Origin: Torymus aiolomorphi
Lineage: Eukaryota; Arthropoda; Insecta; Hymenoptera; Torymidae
Length of the DNA: 64,000 nucleotides
Reading direction: 5' to 3'
Assembly (NCBI GenBank): GCA_036365515.1
Contig: CM070876.1
Location: 38,277,195-38,341,194 of the forward strand
The notes beneath the pieces were generated by a model. That model made no database searches and was not told the DNA's origin. It saw nothing but the letters and a program-made list of their open reading frames with translations. The translations under genes and the position numbers were made by a program. This document shows, piece by piece, positions 640 through 51,480 of the stretch. Within the stretch, counting starts at the first letter, position 1. Every line of letters begins with the position of its first letter.

Positions 640-1208
640 CCGTTTTGCTGGGGGGTGTATGGCGCAGTCGTCTCCAGTGTGATTCCATACCTTCAGAGAT
701 ACTTCTTCATATTTTGATTGTAGAACTCTCTTCCGTTGTCCGTCCTCAGATATTTCTGGGGTCGTCCGAACTTGTTGCAAATTTCCCGCTCAAATTCTTT
801 AAAAATGTCGTACACGTCCGCCTTGTTCTTGAGAAAGTATACGAATTTATACCTGGTGGCAGCATCCTTGAATAGCAGAAAATACTTGGCCTTTCTTAGC
901 GATTCTGTCTGCATGGGTCCACATAAGTCGCTGTAGAAGAATTCACCTGGTTGTCTTGCCACCTTATCTGGTTCTGGATTATAAAAGGGCAAACGATGAG
1001 ATTTTCCCATTTGACAGGCCTCACAGAAGAAGTCGCTTCTGCTGCTAACCATTATGCCTTTTGCCATATCCTTATCGAGCATTTTCTTTACGGTGTCTTT
1101 GCATGCATGTCCCAGCCTCTCGTGCCATCTCTTAAGATCTGCGGTCGCCACGTTTGCTTCTTGACTCCCGGATCGAGTAGTCATCAACATGCGGAACAAT
1201 TCATTTTG
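640..1208 (-). pseudogene. copia GAG-pre-integrase and truncated integrase core
   Basis: This continues the gag-protease frame after the TAG. The HHCC zinc-binding set is visible as W-H-E-R-L-G-H and, 28 residues later, C-E-A-C. The integrase core then shows the first catalytic Asp in YSDLCGPM and the second in RTDNGREF. A TGA follows the KKYL residues. Beyond it the frame still reads the copia motif PYTPQQNG, but the segment that should carry the third catalytic residue (E) is replaced by gag sequence from about 640 leftwards. The integrase therefore lacks its complete D-D-E triad and cannot be active. Confidence 0.85.
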
Positions 1209-2444
1209 CTACTTCAGCCCTCGAGCAACCATGACCTGTTCATGGTAGATGCCAACTTCCTTCTCTTGAAAAATAGCACGCAGACTACGAGACGTGCAAA
1301 CACCGACCGAGAACAGATTCTTTTTAAGTTTCGATACAAGCAGAACGTTCTCAATTCTTGCATCTTCCCACTCGCGGTCGATTAGCTTCCTCACGTGAGC
1401 TGTGCCGGAACCCACAACAGCACATGATCCATCGTCGCCTAGTTGAATCGTTTCGTTGCTGCACGCTATGAAGTCGGTAAGCCAGTCGCCTCGATAGGTT
1501 AGGTGGCGCGAGGCGCCGCTGTCGCATATCCATACGTCTGCCGTACTTGCCTGCATGATTTGCCGCTCACACTCTGTGCTAGCGCGCGCGTTGTCTTGCT
1601 CCGTTCCATCGACTGCAGAAACGACAAAAGCCCCGGCGAACTTTGAATTCGAGCCCTGCTCTCCTTGTTTTTTTTTTGGATTTGGCTTCTTCGTGCGGCA
1701 GTTTCGAGCGAAGTGTCCAGGCTTCTTACAGCGGTAGCAAATCACGTCACTCGGATTTCGCTTTACAGCTCCAATGTCCTGCCCAAGGTTATTTCCTGTG
1801 TTTATTTTCTTTCTGCCCGAGGTAGAAACAGCCAGCGCGCTTGACTCCCCGTCGTGTTGCGCGAATCGAAACTCTTGTTTGATTAGCCTCTCTTTCAAAT
1901 TGACGAGCGTCTGTTTGGACGAGTCCATATTATCCCATGCCGTAATAAAACCGTCATATTTAGAGGGCAAAGTTCCGATGATTTTTGTCATAACCGACGA
2001 ATCCTCCACTTTTTCTCCAAAGTCCTCTAACGTGCGCTTGAGGTTCATGACCTTTGCAATATGCTGAACTACAGATCCTCCTGTGTCCATTTTATATTCA
2101 TAAAATCTCTGTTGCGCTAGTATTTTGTTTAGGTTACTCTTCTGCTCGTGTACTTGCAGCATCTGGTCCCACATCTCCTTTGCAGTCTCGCACTGCTTTA
2201 GCGGTTCGAGTTCGTCTGGCACCATTGCACTCGCAATCAGACACATCGCTTTCGCGTTGTCTTTGTTCCACGCGGATATTTTAGTCTTGTTTTCCGCTGT
2301 AGTCCCCGTCGGTTTCTCCCGGATTCCCAAGGTGATATCCAGTAGTCCGTGCGCCGTGAGAGCTGTCCTTACTTGGAATTTCCATGTTGAGAAATCGCTT
2401 CCGTTGAATTTCTGAATAAAACTTAGCGCGATATCAGTGGCCAT
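1209..2444 (-). CDS. copia gag plus protease start (gag-pol 5' part)
   Basis: About 411 residues from the ATG at 2442-2444. The open frame extends to 2483, but the context (MATDIALSFIQKFNG) fits a copia gag start at the inner ATG. The first 190 residues resemble the UBN2/gag-polypeptide family of copia elements (W-x-F-Q-V-R near the start). Counting from 2483, the zinc knuckle is C249-x2-C252-x4-H257-x4-C262, which binds RNA in this family. It is followed by a basic stretch and the aspartic-protease signature DSGASRHLT at 321-329. A TAG at 1209-1211 ends the frame. Downstream codons continue in the same frame into the pre-integrase region, so the stop is probably a point mutation. Confidence 0.85.
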   Translation of the reverse strand: MATDIALSFIQKFNGSDFSTWKFQVRTALTAHGLLDITLGIREKPTGTTAENKTKISAWNKDNAKAMCLIASAMVPDELEPLKQCETAKEMWDQMLQVHEQKSNLNKILAQQRFYEYKMDTGGSVVQHIAKVMNLKRTLEDFGEKVEDSSVMTKIIGTLPSKYDGFITAWDNMDSSKQTLVNLKERLIKQEFRFAQHDGESSALAVSTSGRKKINTGNNLGQDIGAVKRNPSDVICYRCKKPGHFARNCRTKKPNPKKKQGEQGSNSKFAGAFVVSAVDGTEQDNARASTECERQIMQASTADVWICDSGASRHLTYRGDWLTDFIACSNETIQLGDDGSCAVVGSGTAHVRKLIDREWEDARIENVLLVSKLKKNLFSVGVCTSRSLRAIFQEKEVGIYHEQVMVARGLK

Positions 2445-2524
2445 CTTCGAGTGGTTTTGCTTGCGAATTCTTCCTCGATTCACCTTCGCGTATCACACGC
2501 GGAAAACTTATACACACTCCGTCT

Positions 2525-13550: not shown

Positions 13551-14784
13551 GATTTTGAAAATTTATCGAATTTCTTTTGTTTTATGATCAAAAAACGATT
13601 TTGAAATTTCAATTTTTCTCACTTTTTTTAGAATAAACAGTACTTCTACCTCTAAAAATTTCAAGAGGTTTTATCGATTTGTCAATGAGAAAAAATTATT
13701 GAAAAAAAAAATTGCATTTTCGTTGTCGCACGATAAGTGGAGTAAAAATCAATCAATCTTTATGAAATTTCGCAGATGGGTAGTTCTTTTATACTTCTGA
13801 AGCCTTTTCATTGGGCAAGTAAAAATGTTCATAAAATTCGAAGATATTGGAGGTTAAATTTTTTTTTGTAATTTTTTTAAATAGCAGTTTCTTGAAAACG
13901 ATTCGACAAATCAAATTGAAATTTATAGGCTGAAAAAAAAATAATAGTAAAATGTGAGCTATAATTGAAATTTATAGCTTCCACTGTGAAGAATATACGT
14001 ACAAAATTTCATTAAGAGTGCTGGATTATTTTTGGATATATTCCTGAGAAAAAGTTTTGAAGAAAAAAAAATGCGTTTAATAGGAATGTAGGAAAGGGGT
14101 TATTATAGATGGTGTAGTGCATGTATGTTATAGTTGCGCTCCGGGTAGGTAGAGGTTTTATATTATTATTAATATATTAAAATAGTAATTTTGTGTTCAC
14201 ATAATATCAGCGGCAGCTCATAAAAGATTTTAAAAATAAGAAAAAATGTGTAATTTTTGTAAATATTAATGAAGTTTTAAATTATTGAAAAAACATCTAG
14301 AATGAATAAACACCCTAGTGGAAATGGAAAATGTATATAAATGTAAATAAGTGTATATTTCTATAAAAAAATGTATGTAAATGTAAATAAGTGTAAATAA
14401 ATGTTGTAATTGGAACACGCATTTATATTTATTTACATTTGTATACGTACTTTTTTTACAGAAATTTACACAAATTTGTACGAATCCTCCATTTATATAC
14501 AAAAAATTAGAACATCAATTTTCTACTTCTAATATTTATTAATTCACAAAAATTAAAAATAAAAGCGTTTTCTTTAATGAGAAAAAATACTGTTTTTTAG
14601 TTACTTCTGTGCACATTTATAATACTTGATAAGATTATAAAAAATTATAAACATGAAAATTTCAACAAATCTTGAATTTTGAATTTTTTAAAATAATTTA
14701 ATAAGTTAAAATTTTTAAATTTAATAATTGTTTACAATATAATTTTTAATTTTAATAGTTTATATAATAGAATAAAAAAAATGA
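13551..14784. other. AT-rich DNA, no gene
   Basis: It contains short degenerate direct and inverted AAATGTAAATAA repeats at about 14330-14450. Nothing else is supported. Confidence 0.5.
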
Positions 14785-14830
14785 AGTTTGAGGAAGCTAA
14801 GTGCCAATGAATTGGCAGCGGTTTTTTTTT
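14785..14830 (+). repeat. Isolated hairpin terminus of a dispersed element
   Basis: GTTTGAGGAAGC is followed by the self-complementary TGCCAATGAATTGGCA (14802-14817). The same end occurs at 21595-21630, and in reverse at about 39561 and 43716. Here the element is cut off after about 14830, just left of the large TIR transposon. Confidence 0.6.
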
Positions 14831-14863
14831 ATAACGAAAAAACAATTTTAAATTTGATAACAT

Positions 14864-15082
14864 CCCGCGTAAAAATTATTTATATTGCACATATAAGGCC
14901 GATATAGTGCATATATGTAGGTGCAATATAGTAGAGATATATCGCACAAACTTTTTGCAATATATTCCCTGACGCTCGGCAAATACGCATCTGCCGTCAT
15001 TATCCGCATATATTGCTCATATTTTTCAAAATTATATTATTTATCCGATCAACCATATATTCGCGCTATATTGCATATTTTT
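14864..15082 (+). repeat. Left terminal inverted repeat
   Basis: It matches the reverse complement of 21294-21509 at roughly 95%. It contains at least five TATATTGCA-like motifs in both orientations (for example TATATTGCAC, GTGCAATATA, TGCAATATAT, CTATATTGCAT), probably transposase-binding sites by analogy with CACTA elements. Confidence 0.92.
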
Positions 15083-15186
15083 AATAGGTGGTCAATTCTT
15101 TTCACATTATACACACTATATTTTTTATAATAACAATTTTCTGTTAAATTTGATATGAAAGTATTGGTTATTGTCTTTATAATAAT

Positions 15187-15201
15187 GAATAATGAATAAT
15201 G

Positions 15202-15260
<59 letters not shown>
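15187..15260. repeat. TAA microsatellite
   Basis: An AATAATG/TAATAA run with about 18 uninterrupted TAA units, immediately before the 3' end of the transposase reading frame (stop near 15265). Confidence 0.95.
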
Positions 15261-15264
<4 letters not shown>

Positions 15265-15265
<1 letters not shown>

Positions 15266-16434
15266 TATTCAAATTCTAAAGAATTTACAGATTCGCATAC
15301 AAAACACTTGACATTTTCAAATTTCATATGTATACAAACATTTTTTAAATTATCGATGTCTATAATTATTGAATTTAATAGTTCTGTATATTGATGAATA
15401 AAATTTAAAGTACCATCTGCTACATTTAAAAAGAAAGGATTCGTTGTTGCAAATTGTTGTACACATGCGTAATATCTTCCAGTGCATTCACAAAACTTTT
15501 TGCACTTACAATTTGTTACACGTATATAATTTAGAACACAACCTATTCTGACACTAGAATTATGTGTATATGTTACAAAATACGACTCAGTTACTTGATC
15601 TTTTTGCGCAGCTTTAGATGTGAATAATAATTTATGTTTATAAATTTTTTTGAAAGAAAATATATTAGTTACTTCTTGTAAGTTATATTTTAATATGATT
15701 TGTTCTACCTCTGGAGCTTGCATTCTTGATATCATGCCTACTATGTAAATAGAAGGGCCAATATGAGTCAGTTTTAGTCTTTTTTTAGGCGATAAAAGTC
15801 TTTCGCAGAATAAATAAGCAGCAGTATTTTCTTTGAGCCAATCGTATTTTAACGTGTGTACTTTAATATATATATCTAGGTTGGATGTAATTTGTAATTC
15901 CGGATTTTTGCTACTGTGCACTAAATTTTTCATCTGTCCATTAACATCTTCGAGAGGAAAACAGGAACTCGTCCACAAAGGACCTAAACGTCGTACAATG
16001 GTTGGCAAATGCTGGAGACTATGAATATTGCAAGTCATGTGTTTACGCCCATATAGGTATTCAAATTGTCTTACGAATTCAATAATCAATTTTTCAGAGA
16101 AATCTATTATTTCATATGTTAGTTTCTGTTGACATAGTGAATAAATAGCCAAGACAAGATACTTGTAATGATCTATATACTCTAGAGGTAATACATCTTG
16201 CAAAACGGGTACAGAAAAATAAAAAAACCAATTTTTCAGTTCCGATGCTTTCCAGTATTTAAAATGGGTATTGATCGATCTTGGGCGTCGTACTATGAAA
16301 GAAGGTGGTTTTATAGATAAAAGCATATTATCTACAACATCAATCAAGTGTGCAATATTAAAGCTTTTCTCCGAAAATTCAGTATTAAACCATAATTCTC
16401 CTAATTTCTTTGCAACTCCTTGAAAGGCAATGCA
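15265..16434 (-). CDS. Transposase C-terminal half, shifted frame
   Basis: The homologous frame resumes at FQGVAKKLGELW directly after the frameshift, so the ATG near 16347 is not a true start. It covers the region EFVRQFEYLYGRKHMTCN, SLQHLPTIVRRLGPLW and FPLEDVNGQMKNLVHSS that is typical of the C-terminal part of animal EnSpm-like transposases. It ends in a Cys-rich patch and the residues VNSLEFE before the TAA microsatellite. Confidence 0.8.
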
Positions 16435-17616
16435 TTATATCAACAGCTGTAGATGTTACGACATTGTGACATATTTTCGATAAAATAGTTGGCCCTTTTA
16501 CACCACAAACTGGTTTATTAATACTAAAAGCTGATATGGAACACTCAAGCACGCTTTCTTCTGTACGCAAACATTGATTTTCTTTATAGGGATAAATACG
16601 AGTTCTTTCAACAGTCGTGCCTTCTTGCAAACAAACTTGACAACCAAATCTGCCGTTGTACTGATTCACTGCTAGAAATAAAGCTTTCGCTGGCAGATCA
16701 GCTGTGCCGCACGTAATTACCCCTCGAACTTTAATAATCTTGCTTAAATCTTTTACATATAATTGAACACCTTTATATAAACTCCTTAGTGAATCTTTGA
16801 TCGGTTCTAAAAATAGGTTTGGTACCGGTTTTTTATCTCCGAACCATATAGACACTAATAAAAGATTTTCAAGTTTATATCGACAGTCATAAGGAAGCTG
16901 CAATATCACTAAAAAGAAACCCCAGATATTATACTTAGATGATTTGAAAATGCGAACGCCATCCGTGTACCACATTAAGGAAATATTGTTTTTGTCGGAT
17001 AAAATATTATTTGGTTTTGATAATTCTTTGTGTATAGAACCATCATGTATGTCTCTTAAAATTTGTCCATCACCACACGAAGAAGCACCTGTATGCTTTA
17101 ATCGATTATAAAATCCTGTGCGCCGATATAAAGATTCCAGTTGTTGTATTAAGGGAATCTCAATAAAATAATTCAATTTTTCCTCGCATTCACATGCAGT
17201 TATGTTTTGTGAAACTTCTTCGCATTCCATGGACTCATCATTATTTACATCGTGATCTACGTTTTGCATAGGCGTGATACAAGTAGAGCAAAAGAAGTGC
17301 TTTTTCACAATATTATCATTGGAAAGTTTGAAGTACTTTTTAAATTTATAAAGACTTGAGGGGCAATTATTGGGCTGCGGCAATACTGTTGACAACAACT
17401 CTAAATAACTACACACGTGAGAGTCAGGTTGTTTCAAAGTAGTTTTTAGAACACCAATACACAAAACGAATTCTCGCACAGTCATTGAAGCTCCTTCATA
17501 CAGCTTTTCGTCTAACAGCCCTCTGCTCATGAATTCATCGTCATCGTACTCGTTATCACTGCAGCCGCCACACGAATCGTCCGAGCTTTCAGCCTCGCTA
17601 TCGTTATCATCAATAT
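16385..17616 (-). CDS. Transposase exon 3, N-terminal catalytic half up to the frameshift
   Basis: It opens with a strongly acidic run (DDNDSEAESSDDS) continuing from exon 2, so the apparent ATG at 17528-17530 is internal. Zinc-binding-like pairs are visible as CSTC and CECE before the catalytic block. TDGV supplies the first predicted catalytic Asp of the tnp2 family; GTADLPAKA and DIMH are later conserved positions. The frame runs on from MHC for 14 wrong codons to a TAA. Confidence 0.8.
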
Positions 17617-17843
17617 CTACAAAATTTTAATTTAGTTTTATATCTATGTAAAAATTATATGAGAATTTTTAATCTTATATCTACTTAATCATCATAACAG
17701 TAAGATATGTCAAAACAAAATTAATTACCACATTGAATTCCAATTGCTCTTGAACGTTCATTTTGCCTGTTCTCTTCGTCAGCAATACTCAAGTCGTGTA
17801 CTAAATTAGTCGCAGAATCATCATCATCACTTATATGCACCGG

Positions 17844-18555
17844 CTAGAAATATATTAAAAATATTTTTATTGCGTCTGTCTATTATTGACTGTAACTACT
17901 GCACTGAAAAGCAAAAAAGCAGGCTGCCCTATTACTTCGGTTCGACTATAATGTGCCCACCCTATAGGTCCAGTATGAGAGGATATATCACGGTGTTCTA
18001 ATTTTATTATTATCAAATTTATATGAGCTCATTCAGCATTTTCACCAAAGGCCTCGGCCTCTCCTTTCTCCGGACACGCGCACACATGCGAGTACCGACG
18101 TCGTGCGCCTGTGCGTACGTGCGTTCGTGGTCCACCCTCGTGTTCCGCATCGGTCGAGCAGCTTCCCCAGAATAAAAGTTCACGGAAGGAAGAGCTTTCT
18201 CTCTGCATAAGAAAAGGCACTTTAACCTAAAAGACGGCGGTCGACTGAGCGTGGGGAAGGTGGGAGTAATCAGCTTCAGTGAGACCGTCCGCGCGTCGCA
18301 AGAGTGACACACAGAGAGAGAGAGAGGGACGAGCTTTTTATTGAACAATGCATGTGGCACGTTTACGGGCATCACTCCCGGCCTTCTCCCGCCGTCTCAT
18401 TCGTAAAAACTCCTGCAGGGAAAATCTTAGTAGGCGCGCTTACCCCGCATTATACACTCTCATACTGGGCGCGATGTTACCTCTATTATGCTTGCTTGGT
18501 CCCCAGAAGAACCATCGACACACACTTTTAGTGTTTAAGAAGTAAGGGAAAGAGT

Positions 18556-18598
<43 letters not shown>

Positions 18599-18776
18599 GA
18601 GAGCGCGCGCACGTTTGCGACCATTTAAAGCAAATCTGAGATCATGCTTCACGTGAGAGTGTAGCGCACCTGTCGATAAACGTGAATTAATCGATTTCAC
18701 ACGGAGGAAGCTTTCGTGTAAAATCGTTTAGCCGAAAAATTACGCACGTTACGCGCCTTATCACACTACAACTTAC
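17844..18776 (-). other. Large first intron of the transposase gene
   Basis: 933 bases with consensus GT (18776-18775) and AG (17845-17844). It is more GC-rich than the surroundings around 18030-18500 and contains an uninterrupted GA tract at 18558-18594 and a shorter one at about 18310-18327. Frames within it show no family resemblance. The middle could be a captured genomic segment. Confidence 0.6.
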
Positions 18777-18926
18777 TTTGTATCTATCTACGTCAGGTTC
18801 TAGCGTTCCTTCTTCTTGTACCGAAGTTGCTTTTATATCAAAAAGTCCTTTCGAGCGCTTTAAGTACAAGCTATAATTTTTATATTGAATCGGTCGTTTG
18901 GACATCTTGGCGTTCAAAAATTTCAA

Positions 18927-19071
18927 ACAATGTTCTTAACCTTTTAATTAAACTATTGTTCATGCATGACGTCAGTGATGTTAGCGATGTTTTGTTTTTA
19001 TTTTTCTTAACCTTTGAAAAAACTTCAGTTTCGTGTGAAACTACGTACAAAGATTATTCACCAGCATCATT
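18927..19071. promoter_or_regulatory. Shared bidirectional promoter region with a CRE palindrome
   Basis: The two start codons, 18926 on - and 19072 on +, are back to back with only 145 bases between them. The gap holds a perfect TGACGTCA (18967-18974), the cyclic-AMP-response/ATF-type site, in ATGACGTCAG. I infer that this region drives both genes. The untranslated leaders must be short unless further upstream exons exist. Confidence 0.55.
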
Positions 19072-19531
19072 ATGTACGTGTTAATATTTTGGGTGGATTA
19101 TCACACGAAAAGTATTGTTGAGGAAAGCGCTTTATGCCCAAATGTCGAAGAAGGAGAAATAACACTCGTAAAATATAAAGACAAGAAGAAGTACAAGGCA
19201 AAAATTATTAAAAAGAGTCGTAAGTTTGCATAGTTGTATTAGCTTATAGACGTATGAGAAATCGTGTAAAACACATATTTATAATGCACAAGTAGTTTTC
19301 ATGAATAAATTTCGCTCTTTTATTCCATTAGTTTGTGAGTTACTAATTTATAAGTATAAGTATATTTATAAGTATTTATAATGTGCAAAGACGTAGAACC
19401 CTGAATGCAAACAATAGGAATAAAAGGAATGCGATTTATTCCAGCGAAATAATAAATATTGAAATTGTATGTATATTTTCAGATGATAAAGAATTTTTAA
19501 ACCGTATACAAGTGAGTTCTACAGGAGAAAT

Positions 19532-20371
19532 TTGGAAATGAAAAAAAAGTCTATCAATATCAATAAAGCAGTACTATCAAAAACGATAAAATTAAAACAA
19601 AAATCTAAAATGAATTATGAAAATCAAGTTGGCTCCTCTTCTTCAATGAGTTTGAAACTTTTTAATTCCAAATCAATTTTTAGTGATTCAGATACAGAAG
19701 ATATTATAAAAACAAATAAAATAAATTTTGAAGAAAAACAAGATTCAGATGGAAACATAGAAAATCAGTTAGCAAAAAGTCCGAAAAAGAAAGAATTAGG
19801 TTGTAAAAATAAAAAAGGAAAGAAGGGGAATAAGCAAATACAAAAATTCCAATTGCAAAGTGATGGAAACGAATTCGATCAGGGATGCAAATCACACAGC
19901 GATCAAGAAATAAGCGCGGAAGAAGGATTACAAAGTGAAATGTTAGAAAAAGAGCGAGAGGAGGAAAGAGGGGAAATGATGAAAAGAAAGAAAGAGAGAC
20001 AAAGAGAAGAAGAAAGGGAACGAGAGGAAGAGAGAGGAAGAGAGCGAAAGAGAGAAAGACAGCGAAAGAAGGAAAGAGCGCAAGAGAGAGAAAGAGAGCG
20101 AAAAAAGGAAAGCGAGGAAGAGAGAGAAAGAGAGCGGGAGAGGAAAAGAGAGGAAGAGAGAGAAAAAGAGCAAGAGAGGGAAAGGGAGGAAGAGAGAGAA
20201 AGAGAGCGAGAGAGGGAAAGAGAGGAAGAGCGGGCAAGAGAGGAAGAGAGGGAAAGAGAGGAAGTGCGGGCAAGAGAGGAAGACAGGGCAAGAGAGGAAG
20301 ACAGGGCAAGAGAGGAAGAGACAGAGAGGAAGAGTGGGAAAGAGAGGAAGACTGGCAAAGAGAGGAAATAG
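19532..20371 (+). CDS. Glu/Arg/Lys-rich charged region of the BEN-like gene
   Basis: A 279-residue open frame within exon 2. It opens on TTG, not ATG, so it is a segment rather than a gene. Residues 1-125 are Lys/Ser/Asn-rich with acidic patches (SDSDTEDI). Residues 130-279 are nearly pure Glu-Arg-Lys repeats encoded by GAGAGA/GAGGAA tracts, likely a long charged helix. The genuine frame differs after about 20325, where EEDWQREEIDYQMRDYD is encoded. The opposite strand gives Ser/Leu-rich artefact frames. Confidence 0.65.
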   Translation: MEMKKKSININKAVLSKTIKLKQKSKMNYENQVGSSSSMSLKLFNSKSIFSDSDTEDIIKTNKINFEEKQDSDGNIENQLAKSPKKKELGCKNKKGKKGNKQIQKFQLQSDGNEFDQGCKSHSDQEISAEEGLQSEMLEKEREEERGEMMKRKKERQREEEREREEERGRERKRERQRKKERAQERERERKKESEEERERERERKREEEREKEQEREREEEREREREREREEERAREEEREREEVRAREEDRAREEDRAREEETERKSGKERKTGKERK

Positions 20372-20584
20372 ATTATCAAATGCGAGACTATGACTAAGAG
20401 AGAGAAAGAAGGCAGAATATGAGAGATCGAGAAAGGAGGCGACAAAGACAGCGACGAAATTTCGATCGTCCCAGAACACCTATGGGAAACAATTATCAAA
20501 ATGATGTAATTTTAATTTTTTTTTTTTATAATATAAATGTGATACTTTATTAATACATATAAATAATAAACTACTTACTTTCAG

Positions 20585-21019
20585 GGGAATGATGATCCAC
20601 TTATGAAATGTCGTGAAGCTGGCAATGGGAAAGTTCAATTGTGCAAAGCTTATAATGTATGGATCGATCAGGCTGATCTGACATTTTTCCAGCGATGGTT
20701 AGATGTACCTAAAGAAATAACTCGGAGACTTATGAAAGCTTTAGTTGGACCAGATCATTTAAAAAACATGTGCGCTAGAGGCAACTCGCGAAATCATGAA
20801 GCCATCCCAAATGATATTGTAAGGGCTGTCGAGGGTAAGAAATGTTTTTAATAATTTACTATATGCAACCTAAATAAATATATACATGCATATTAAATTA
20901 AAAATTGTTATTTTATTTTAGTTTACGTCAATAAAAAGTGTTCAAAAAGGCTACAACCGGTCGATTTTACAAACACTATTAATATGATGTGTTGCTCGCT
21001 AAGGAACCCAAGACGTTAA
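20585..21019 (+). CDS. BEN-like C-terminal exons 3 and 4
   Basis: Exon 3 begins GNDDPLMKCREAG after a TTTCAG acceptor and ends GTCGAGG|GTAAGA. Exon 4 follows a TTTTAG acceptor, supplies the completing T-T of a Val codon and ends CCSLRNPRR. The central LMKALVGPDHLKNMCARG is the best BEN match (a basic helix followed by LKNxxxxG). These two exons are undamaged. Confidence 0.7.
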
Positions 21020-21293
21020 TATTGTTAATTTCATGTTCGATAAATTATAAAGAATACTTATATTAATTTAATTTCATATTAAAATGAATTATGTTAAAAA
21101 ATACAAAACATATACTTACATGTTTACTTGATTGAAAAGTTATTATAAATAAATTCTAAACTTATGCCATTGTGCCAAAGTTGTGCGCTTTAATGTGGTG
21201 TTTATTGCAACTCTCGTGTTCATCGTTATCGGGGATAATTTGGTCTGTTGCACTTAAATGAAAGTGAAAAGAGATAGCGGTGCATATATTTAA

Positions 21294-21509
21294 ATTATGC
21301 AATATAACGCGAATATATGGTTGATTGGATAAATAATATAATTATGAAAAATATGAGCAATATATGCGGATAATGACGGCAGATGCGTATTTGCCGAGCG
21401 TCGGGGAATACATTGCAAAAAGTTTGTGCGATATATCTCTACTATATTGCACCAACATATATGCACTATATTGGCCTTATATTTGCAATATAAATGATTT
21501 TTACGCGGG
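21294..21509 (-). repeat. Right terminal inverted repeat
   Basis: The reverse complement of 14864-15082; it ends TTTTTACGCGGG at 21509 and is followed by AT. It carries the same mixed-orientation TATATTGCA motifs. Confidence 0.92.
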
Positions 21510-21594
21510 ATATTAAATGCATGCAGATTGATAAATAGCAATCATTTAAATATATACTGATGTAAACAATCAATGTAATAGAGCAATAACTTTA

Positions 21595-21832
21595 GTTTGA
21601 GGAAGCTGTTTTCCAATGAATTGGCAGCAGGTTTTCTTCGAGACAAAGGGAATGAGCCTTGTCTAGCGAAAATCGGTGGAATCGTTCTCGAGATATCAAG
21701 AGCGCACACATACACACACACACGCGTGCATGGCGCGCGCAATAAAAACTTTTCTCAAAATCAACAAATTTCGATATATATCGCCTTAATATTGTTCACC
21801 GATCCAAAGCTTCCTAAATGAGGAAGCAATAC
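21595..21832 (+). mobile_element. Short complete copy of the hairpin-ended, CA-bearing element
   Basis: It starts GTTTGAGGAAGC with an imperfect CCAATGAATTGG hairpin. It carries TCGTTCTCGAGATATC and a CA tract (about 21703-21722), and ends with AAAGCTTCCTAAATGAGGAAGC. With a stem-loop at each end and an internal microsatellite but no TIR or ORF, it resembles Helentron-derived HINE elements. That assignment is inference. Confidence 0.5.
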
Positions 21833-23802
21833 AATAGAATAGAAATATTGTACGATTTATCAAACATATCATGAACCAAGTAAGGTTTCATTTCTGTAAT
21901 ATTTAATTTTATTTATATGATCTTCTTAGGTGTAATTCTCTCGCCTTATTTTCTCGCGTTGCTTGCACGCACAAAATGTGTTGAGCGGCTGCAGTTTTAC
22001 GACTAGACAAAAGCCTCATATATAATATATACTGCCGTCCTGGTCACCTTACACATGCTACGCTGCCTCTCTTTACGCGGCAGTAAAGCTGACTAAGAAT
22101 CGACAAACAATCTATTCCATACTCGTGCTACGTTCGCTATAACAAGAGGTTATGAATGGAGCTGATGATAAGCCTCTCAGACTCTTCTCTGTCTATATCT
22201 TCTTTCTTTTTGTTTCGGTCGAAAGCGGATTTCTGTTAAAATTTCGGCGTAACTCAAAAGCCAAGACAAATATAGGCGTGCTCACGCGCTTGCTGCTGTC
22301 GTCAGTAAATCCAGTAAAAAAAGATACCTAAAGATAAAAAGGAGCGAAATAATCGAAGTGTAAGGAGAGGAGAAAAAAGACAAGAAAGAGTACAAGAAGA
22401 ACAACACGTACGCTTGTAATTCCCGTCATTAGATGGCTTATACAACCTTGAGTCTCTGCAGCGGAGCGATTAGCCTGCGTTATTAGTTCTCGAGCTTATT
22501 TGCCATTTTTTTTACTGCACATACAGAGAAATTAGGTGCGATGTCATTGACAAGCGCGCGCATGCGACTAGTCGTTCGCTATTAAAGTTTATTATTATGT
22601 GCTGAGGAATATTGCTGTGCATGCGTGACGCACCCATTTTCTTCGAGCCACTGCCTGCATCATAGCTTTAATGCTTGTAAAATACAATAGAGCAATTTGC
22701 TAATACTATCTACAATGTGGATGCACGATTGAGTATGCATACCTTGAGAATAAGATTTTGACGAAAAATTTTATATTGCAATTTTACCTCTCAGACTGTT
22801 ATTACGGATCCGTTCACAGCTTTTCAAAGAATTTAAACTTTATCAAGAAGTAATAAAGATACACGAGGTTCTGTTGACAAAATGATTTGCAAACGTGTTC
22901 TAAATACTGAACGGTCATTAATTCGAAGTCATAAATTAATCGAGTATGTATCAAGGAAAATGTGATTTGTAAAAAATGCATATATTCACAAATTAATGCA
23001 AAAATATAGATAAAGAACTCCTTAAAATTTCAGCAAGAAATGAGCCTTATTCACTAAGAATCACAATATTGGTATAAGTATAATGAATGATACTACATAA
23101 AATTATTTGAGGATTTCAAATTATGGGTCACCTACTTTTACACGGGAAGTGACGTAAGCAGCTTAGAACGTATTCCCACGTAAAAACACAAATTCACTAC
23201 CATTTTTCAATACAATGACGAAAAATAGGTAAAAACATCAGAAGTACTCAATTTTAGGCTATTACTTTAGAGGGTTTGACTTAACACAAAAATATTAAAC
23301 ACAAAAGTTGTAGATAAAACTAAAATAAAACTTTTATCATTTGTGAAATCTTGGCAGTTGAGGGAAATACTTTTATATGGTATTTTTATTTTGGGTTGTA
23401 ATTGAATACTTACTCTTTTGATGATGCAGATTCTCCGAAATGAATTGGAACAGAGAATTTGAGTAATAATTATTTATTGATATGAAATCTGGCTTATAAC
23501 TTGATATGGGCTCTTATTGACCCTTACAAAATAGCTACTCCTAGTGTCGTCGGGAGTGTTATGGAGTTCGCGGACTGGCGCGAACTGAATTGTGCGAGTG
23601 ATTACGCTTATTTTATAACACTATTAATTTAGGTCAAGATGATTTTGACGATGAATCGAGATCATATTTTTAAACAAATTAAATAAACATTTTGACGTAA
23701 GCCGTTTGACTTCAAATTAAAAAGTGCTGAGTATAAAGAAAATTACGACGCGCGTATGCTTTCGTGAAGTTTGTGGCTCCCCGCGTAAAAAAAATTGAGG
23801 TG
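21833..23802. other. Intergenic DNA, nothing recognised
   Basis: Mixed AT-rich DNA with no credible ORF. Bases 23260-23350 weakly resemble the tandem repeat at 25.5-25.9 kb, suggesting that the palindrome on the right was inserted into such DNA. Confidence 0.5.
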
Positions 23803-25357
23803 ATTAAAAGATCACTTAAAGATACATCTCGATTATGGCCGTTTTTGTTACTTTTTAAGATGACAAATCTCAGCGAATAATCTAGATGATTTTAATATCT
23901 TATTAATCATCGCCTTTGAAACATTTTTAAGATGATTTTCAGACGTACGAAATTCATTATTTAATATCATTTTAAGGATGTTCAATGGTTACAGCAAAGT
24001 TAACAGAAGTCTTTGAAATTTTAATATATCATTACTTAGATAAAATAAAAGCAGCTTGAATTTTTTCAATATTTTATACTGAGCATTTTTTCGAGAAAAA
24101 AGTTCTTGAAAATCGAGTTTTTAACATAGGCTCTTATGGGAGAGTGAGGTTATGTGACCTTTGAACATAAAAATCTCTTATAAAAAGTTAAGAGATTAGG
24201 TTAAAAGACCTGTATTTGAATAGAAAAATAATCAAAGAATAAAAACTTAGAGGGATCTTGACCGCTTACAGGGCATTTGGGAAAGAAGTAGGTGAAAACG
24301 TAAACAAAACACCGAGTTCGTCGGCTGCGCGAGGAGGTGCGCGGTGAGCGGCGAGCACCCGCGGAGAGAGAGGGGCGTCCCTCGCTTCGCCCCGCAGCAT
24401 GACACCATTGAACATCCTTAAGATAAATTTGAGATGCTTTTGAAATGAATTTGCGACGAATTCGAGACGAGCTTTCGTACTGAATTTAAGATAATTTTTA
24501 GATTTTTTAAGATGATGATAAGATTAACTTGAGACAAACTTTTATGACAACTTTAAGATGTCTAATAAATGAATTGATGCGAAAATTTGTAAATTTATTA
24601 AAAATTTTTTTAATCGATTCTTTAAAAACCCGATTAAGGAGTTTATACCAAAAGCAAGGCAAGCCTTGAAGTTTAGACTCTTGTTAAAGAGTGATTTAAA
24701 AGCAGAATCTCTTGGACTTATATACTCTCGGCGTTTCAATGTGTTTAAGGGTGCCCCGATCGATGCGCCGCATAGCGGCGGCAGACGACAACCAGGAATT
24801 CGGTTACTTCCAATCGGTTGTTACCGTCGTTAGACGCTACGCGGCGTATCAATCGGGGCACCCCTAAACACATTGAAACGCCGAGAGTATATAAGTCCCA
24901 GAGATTCAGCTTTTAAACCACTCTTTAACAAGAGTCTAAACTTCAAGGCTTGCTTTTGTTATAAACCTCTTAATCGGGTTTAAAGAAGTGAATAAAAAAA
25001 TTTTTATTTTAATTTTGAATAAATTCATTTTTCAGACATCTTAAAGTTGTCATAAAAGTTTGTCTCAAGTTAATCTTATCATTTCTTAAAAAATCTAAAA
25101 ATCATCTTAAATTCAGTACGGAAGCTCGTCTCGAATTCGTCTCAAATTCATTTCAAAATCATCTCAAATTTATCTTAAAATGATATTAAATAATGAATTT
25201 CGTTTGTCTGAAAACCATCTTAAAAATGCTTTGAAAGGCCGAATGTAGCGATGATTAAAAAAATATTAAAATCATCTTGATTATTCGTTGAGATTTGTCA
25301 TCTTAAAAAGTAACAAAAACGGCCATAATCGAGACATACCTTAAAGCGATCTTTTTT
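23803..25357. mobile_element. 1.55-kb palindromic (foldback-type) element
   Basis: The left arm (23803 to about 24774) and right arm (about 24835-25357) are inverted copies, for example ATCTCGATTATGGCCGTTTT against AAAACGGCCATAATCGAGAC. Arms are about 500 bases each once a nested 442-bp insertion in the left arm is removed. The centre near 24775-24835 is GC-rich and unpaired. There is no ORF, so the element is non-autonomous. TTAAGATG-like phrases recur many times within each arm. Confidence 0.88.
23976..24417. mobile_element. 442-bp MITE with TTAA target duplication, nested in the palindrome
   Basis: Perfect 13-bp TIRs GGATGTTCAATGG (23976-23988) and CCATTGAACATCC (24405-24417), flanked by TTAA on both sides (23972-23975, 24418-24421) as in piggyBac-type insertion. 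The mirror arm has an unoccupied TTAA at about 25175. There is no ORF. The right third is GC-rich. Confidence 0.88.
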
Positions 25358-51400: not shown

Positions 51401-51407
51401 AAAATAT

Positions 51408-51480
51408 GCGACGAGCGGGACGCGAACCCACGAACCCGAGGTTATTGTAGTCTCGCCCTCTACCACTGAGCTAACGTCGC
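51408..51480 (-). tRNA. tRNA-like sequence, probably tRNA pseudogene or SINE head
   Basis: 73 nt. The 5' GCGACG pairs with the 3' CGTCGC. There is an A-box-like TTAGCTCAGTGGTAGAGG and a B-box-like GGTTCGCGTCC. The anticodon stem (CGAG/CTCG) encloses a loop two bases too long, and the D stem is imperfect, so a working tRNA is unlikely. A fragment of the same sequence occurs at 25646-25675, which favours a dispersed tRNA-derived repeat. Confidence 0.45.

Follow-up and report, generated by a model that had tools for sequence, protein, structure and literature searches.

A decayed CACTA-like transposon of the wasp Torymus aiolomorphi carries a tnp2-type transposase gene paired divergently with a putative Tudor-like/BEN-domain gene

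When a transposon encloses a second gene beside its transposase, does that gene belong to the element? This question is raised by a locus in a 64,000-nucleotide stretch of the Torymus aiolomorphi genome (GenBank assembly GCA_036365515.1, contig CM070876.1, positions 38,277,195 to 38,341,194; hereafter the window), where terminal inverted repeats (TIRs) enclose a tnp2-type transposase gene on the minus strand and a gene for a predicted Tudor-like/BEN-domain protein on the plus strand (Table 1). The window holds a decayed copy, and its two-gene architecture is real. We consider the feature to be probably a decayed autonomous cut-and-paste transposon of the animal CACTA/EnSpm superfamily (TRC type), of a kind that in this genome normally carries a pair of divergently oriented genes.

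The analysis of the genome (1.08 Gb, 21 contigs) revealed matches to the left TIR arm in at least 22 places, of which two are the arms of the window copy itself, and 14 stretches around other matches were taken for reading. Two-ended copies of the window's own and sister families comprised the window, L009, L010, L011, L012+L013, L018, L019, L020 and L021, and all nine contained divergent transposase and BEN-gene pieces inside their TIRs. An earlier reading made from the letters of the window alone (the sequence-only reading) had described two spliced, divergent genes enclosed by TIRs; this description is borne out by the splice junctions and by the BEN-like exons found divergently within the TIRs of every two-ended copy read. 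Arm identity to the window is about 75% in L018, L019 and L020 and about 72-75% in L021. The L012+L013 copy carries a large insertion, its main BEN exon was missed by tblastn with only a trace of the last exon detected, and the stretch read stops short of the outer end of its right arm. No transposase was found by tblastn in the one-ended fragments L014, L015, L016 and L022, while in L017 broken transposase exons and a BEN locus stand divergently some 10 kb apart. In addition, about 300 bp beyond the left TIR are 98-100% identical among L009, L010 and L014, which lie at different places in the genome, and the right flank of L009 and L010 is likewise shared; either the element was copied together with its surroundings or it is seated in a repeat.

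These observations were further strengthened by genome-wide pairing. With 150 of 151 candidates scored, the main BEN exon gave 99 matches, distributed over 94 loci, and the transposase loci on which all pairing counts rest are those listed from 104 of 1253 candidates scored. At least 30 of the 47 BEN loci with 50% identity or more were accompanied, within 10 kb, by a transposase in divergent orientation, at distances of 0.9-7.4 kb (median 3.2). The divergent transposase was the only one at 26 of these 30; the other four additionally had a tandem (three loci) or convergent (one locus) transposase match, partly because elements sit near one another. Seen from the transposase side, at least 34 of 100 loci had a BEN match lying divergently no more than 10 kb away. 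At seven transposase loci without a BEN match, the divergent side was read: BEN-like exons were recovered at L023, L024 and L025 by a profile not containing them (expect values, E, of 1.1e-4, 2.6e-7 and 1.6e-5) and at L033 (E 4.5e-17) and L032 (E 2.3e-9), and in the 5.2 kb read at L031 and L034 the Tudor-like exon alone was seen; L031-L034 stood outside all profile building. The simple repeats and differing composition at about 18000-18700, between the genes, could by eye be inserted sequence and would suit an account in which the two genes are chance neighbours or a nested insertion within unrelated inverted repeats. Yet many sites show this arrangement, placing the 47 loci at random gave a mean of only 0.09 and a maximum of 2 (contig C5 size assumed), and copy structure together with genome-wide pairing refutes this account, to which we attach practically no probability.

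The ends of the element place it among known systems. CCCGCG stands at both window ends and at most other copies' ends inspected, the exceptions being the right ends of L019 (minus one C), L021 (CCCGGG), L017 (without the first bases) and L024 (CCCGCA). Of the ten two-ended copies whose flanks were compared, eight had matching dinucleotides (five with AT and one each with TA, CA and TT), which amounts to a 2-bp duplication at seven of nine distinct insertions by flank comparison of filled sites, because the flanks of L009 and L010 are 98-100% identical. The elements around L024 and L023 likewise end in CCCGCG/CCCGCA, and their TIRs measure about 229 and 339 bp. The TIRs had been put at about 215 bp in the sequence-only reading; inverted repeats they are, although of the greater length given in Table 1. 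The window has a second transposon terminus at 23780-23861 (CCCGCGTAAAAAAAATT...), a fragment of a further such element; across 82 bp it shares 78-81% identity with the TIR of a distant family member (L028/L024). Just beyond the two-gene element, one copy on each side (14776-14829 and 21585-21638), lies a direct repeat of 80% identity that contains CCAATGAATTGGCAG and is distinct from the target duplication.

Plant CACTA elements are defined by CACTA ends and a 3-bp duplication, neither of which is found here, and plant En/Spm encodes TnpD (tnp2) with a second protein, TnpA. The present element resembles En/Spm in having a tnp2-type transposase, a second protein and repeats near the ends, and differs in its CCCGCG ends, its divergent genes, the placing of the repeats inside one long TIR, and a Tudor-BEN rather than a TnpA partner. 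Closer relatives exist in animals, namely the CACTA-superfamily TRC elements (SmTRC1 from Schistosoma, and TRC from Tribolium and from Aedes), for which the portions consulted of DeMarco et al. (2006, PMC1636069) describe Transposase_21, CCC termini, a 2-bp direct repeat (at 7 of 14 SmTRC1 copies) and spliced transcripts, matched here by spliced gene models. The window ends are thus of the expected animal type, since TRC elements share CCC ends and the 2-bp repeat (PMC1636069); the earlier statement that the termini differ from classic CACTA ends holds for the plant type, whereas the supposed anomaly falls away against this published pattern. The long TIR and the Tudor-BEN partner set the element apart from known TRC elements: TRC TIRs measure 54, 27 and 10 bp, and the same portions of the paper describe a transposase open reading frame and no BEN partner, whose absence is thereby unproven (PMC1636069).

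For the minus-strand gene, the proposed tnp2-type transposase was confirmed by Transposase_21 (tnp2, PF02992; E 5.8e-13, 49 bits against a cut-off of 28.6). DUF4218 (PF13960) matched weakly (E 0.0023, 18.2 bits, under the cut-off of 27) and is present in the precomputed annotation of the homologues P0013 and P0018. The three exons have GT/AG junctions and join in phase, the final phase having been derived by hand. Two Asp and one Glu in the aligned sequences (Table 1) are consistent with a DDE triad, and we presume that they are the catalytic residues of the CACTA superfamily. Transposase relatives include Microctonus, Frankliniella and Gigantopelta, and an IMG/VR scan with the transposase returned 18 pattern matches with no relative among them.

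The plus-strand protein is predicted to consist of a Tudor-like (putatively KDM4-like) domain, a charged linker and a BEN domain. Profile and fold routes were used for the BEN domain because the direct Pfam route failed. By profile search, the NACC1 BEN structures 8yzs (E 1.7e-7) and 7bv9 (E 2.5e-7) were recovered, the next match standing at E 0.15, and a BEN fold is present in the predicted structure of a relative. The named-species relatives of the BEN protein (Trichogramma, Eretmocerus, Phymastichus and Nasonia) all belong to Chalcidoidea, in searches that demanded shared exact words and so had limited reach beyond chalcids. Separately, 17 loci at 36-38% identity to the BEN exon, L027 among them, have an open frame of exactly 100 aa and look like a separate repeated BEN-like family, with no transposase among the matches listed.

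Table 1. Coordinates of the element and its parts in the window
Feature	Position	Strand	Basis and remarks
Whole element, 6,646 bp	14864-21509		Both ends fixed to the exact base
Target-site dinucleotide AT, left	14862..14863	none	Same AT at 21510-21511
Left TIR, 223 bp, starts CCCGCGTAAAAAT	14864..15086	+	95% identity with right arm
Transposase exon 3, Transposase_21 and DUF4218-like parts	15265..17616	-	PF02992; frame break near 16430
Candidate catalytic Glu (FPLEDVNG)	15949..15951	-	Kept in alignment rows reaching it, P0012 excepted
Candidate catalytic Asp (GTADLPAK), residue 309	16697..16699	-	Near-invariant, 12-row alignment
Candidate catalytic Asp (WYTDG), residue 221 of window:16430-17623:-	16961..16963	-	Near-invariant, 12-row alignment
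Transposase exon 2	17729..17843	-	GT/AG junctions; tblastn matches in several copies
Transposase exon 1 with ATG	18777..18905	-	GT/AG junctions; tblastn matches in copies
Gap between the two start codons, 166 bp, putative shared divergent promoter	18906..19071	none	Position only
BEN-gene exon 1, Tudor-like N-terminal domain	19072..19219	+	GT/AG junctions
BEN-gene middle exon(s), charged Glu/Arg-rich linker	19483..20506	+	GT/AG junctions; frame broken
BEN-domain exon, first part	20585..20834	+	GT/AG junctions; BEN by profile and structure of relatives
BEN-domain last exon with stop	20922..21019	+	GT/AG junctions
Right TIR, 223 bp	21287..21509	-	95% identity with left arm
Target-site dinucleotide AT, right	21510..21511	none	Same AT at 14862-14863

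The window copy is dead because frames are broken in both genes. The transposase frame is lost near 16430, at a VDIMHC motif through which relatives continue, and the plus-strand gene has at least three breaks in its second exon (one near 19538 and at least two between about 20300 and 20400). Junctions and frames had been said to agree in phase, which stands for the GT/AG splice junctions and fails for intact frames. Long uninterrupted transposase frames (787 and 854 aa) survive in more than one copy. Between the window and L018, the ratio of nonsynonymous to synonymous substitution rates (Ka/Ks) was 0.14 and 0.18 for the transposase pieces, 0.14 for the main BEN exon and 0.05 for the last exon. 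Across all between-family comparisons it was 0.12-0.19 for the transposase pieces and 0.14-0.20 for the main BEN exon where computable; most first-exon values were not computable because the silent sites of that exon were saturated, and no value was obtained for three BEN-exon comparisons with L026. The low between-family values in both genes therefore indicate that both were kept by selection. Among near-identical copies, transposase Ka/Ks rose to 0.39-0.78 and the BEN exons had too few changes to contrast; the usual course of selection during spread followed by decay after insertion is thus documented in both halves for the transposase and in its first half for the BEN gene. These results bear on whether the BEN gene is a passenger, that is, a captured host gene without a role in the element's life cycle. 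BEN loci without a nearby transposase among the matches listed would fit such a gene, but purifying selection on BEN is about equal in strength to that on the transposase, and the gene occurs, always divergent, in 9/9 two-ended copies as well as in families that have diverged. Taken together, the make-up of the copies, the gene orientation and the selection largely refute the passenger explanation and leave it very improbable.

As to function, we favor, with some reservation, an accessory protein that would bind the long TIRs and aid transposition. The BEN domain would bind the TIR, where near-copies of the 10-mer TGCAATATAT (at most one mismatch, both strands) recur seven times in the left arm, and the bound protein would help bring the two ends together and load the transposase. 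It would perhaps also regulate the divergent promoter, and its part in the element would on the whole be much like that of TnpA in plant Spm; the Tudor-like domain may read methylated histones, tying the element to chromatin. For the best 10-mer, none of 200 dinucleotide shuffles of the window left arm reached seven, as compared with 1 of 200 for the best 9-mer and 12 of 200 for the weaker best 8-mer; the left arm of L018 contains six copies of a nearly identical 10-mer, a count reached in 0 of 200 shuffles. A less probable but serious alternative is that the BEN-Tudor protein acts mainly as an anti-silencing or transcription factor at the ends or promoter, outside the transposition complex. 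The divergent arrangement, in which 166 bp separate the start codons, a Tudor-like and a DNA-binding fold predicted in one protein, and the description of animal BEN proteins as chromatin and transcription factors in the parts of the literature consulted all agree with it. Against it stands the location of the recurring motif in the TIR, in an analysis that covered left TIR arms. It is unlikely that the Tudor-BEN protein directs integration to particular chromatin, although the Tudor-like domain would suit such target choice and related Tudor domains elsewhere bind methylated histones; the insertions sampled are too few to show a preference.

Against a CACTA-type element with a BEN-domain accessory protein, several observations have to be weighed. 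Pfam BEN (PF10523) had no match in the window protein and matched 1 of 22 family members, under the cut-off (P0042, 19.5 bits versus 23.2), so that the BEN-like C-terminus proposed in the sequence-only reading stands by profile and structure of relatives and not by the PF10523 search. The structure modelled is that of a Trichogramma relative rather than of the window protein, with a whole-model predicted template-modelling score of 0.41. Among the transposase matches listed, 17 of the 47 BEN loci at 50% identity or more lacked a divergent transposase within 10 kb, 19 of 23 loci at 43-49% identity were unpaired (4 paired), and none of the 24 below 43% was paired. Likewise, tblastn found no transposase in the 6-7 kb upstream of L026 (61% identity) and L027 (38%), which are either decayed copies or free-standing genes. 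The flanking dinucleotides were unmatched in two of ten copies: CG/AG at L029/L023, and TG/TA at L019, whose end is short of one C. The 10-mer enrichment was computed on left arms only, and in a third family (L021) the motif is not enriched (3 copies; 97 of 200 shuffles reach it). Finally, a near-palindrome at arm offset 113, inside the 26 nt that are best conserved when the TIRs of three families are aligned, was rejected as a binding site, since 178 and 172 of 1000 mononucleotide shuffles reach it in the window arms, within chance; with 227 of 1000 in the L021 left arm and 18-22 in three other arms, it is a weak lead.

For a BEN-like fold at transposon ends there is a bacterial precedent. 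In the parts consulted of PMC9579193, the Tn3-family transposase TnpA has a domain, DBD1, with a BEN-like fold that binds the inverted repeat sequence-specifically; there the fold lies within the transposase itself, in contrast to the separate protein here. That paper ties the BEN fold to a transposase among the partly consulted papers containing both kinds of term (also PMC5704228, PMC4574769 and PMC11075544). At the level of titles and abstract openings, with incomplete journal coverage, the literature searched yielded neither a BEN domain paired with CACTA or another eukaryotic transposon nor a Tudor-like and BEN pairing. Compared with NACC1, Insensitive, Bsg25A, BANP and BEND3/6, the present protein is transposon-encoded and has a predicted Tudor-like N-terminus and charged linker. 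The bracovirus BEN proteins of parasitoid wasps, as described in the portions consulted of PMC4574769, likewise combine a C-terminal BEN domain with a separate conserved N-terminal domain (68 residues, in proteins of up to 1200 aa), although they are viral genes. When the P0037 model was compared with a viral fold library, three of the first four matches, the top one included, were named as bracovirus BEN proteins, and several top viral matches align over more than 300 columns. From such models, bracovirus BEN proteins and the transposon gene may share both protein ends.

Elsewhere in the window, positions 693-2492 (minus strand) contain gag/pol fragments of a Copia-type long terminal repeat retrotransposon (Retrotran_gag_2, E 6e-35; rve, E 2.6e-6, under cut-off), and 51407-51480 (minus strand) gave a single tRNA-like Rfam match of 37 bits, with no call by ARAGORN (bacterial code).

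More broadly, and only tentatively, an animal CACTA lineage may carry as standard an accessory protein of Tudor-BEN type, which either took the place of plant TnpA or arose apart from it; such a protein may read chromatin and bind the ends, and could be the origin of BEN genes that stand alone, among them the BEN-only loci of wasps and the bracovirus BEN family. If the accessory role is true, animals and plants would recognize CACTA ends with DNA-binding proteins that are unrelated to each other, and a BEN-like fold would have come into use on transposon ends at least twice, in the bacterial Tn3 transposase and here. BEN domains, known mainly from chromatin and boundary factors, would then gain a home in selfish DNA and a testable source. 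With tens of transposase-paired BEN genes in the genome examined and constraint on the families compared, the question is directly approachable.

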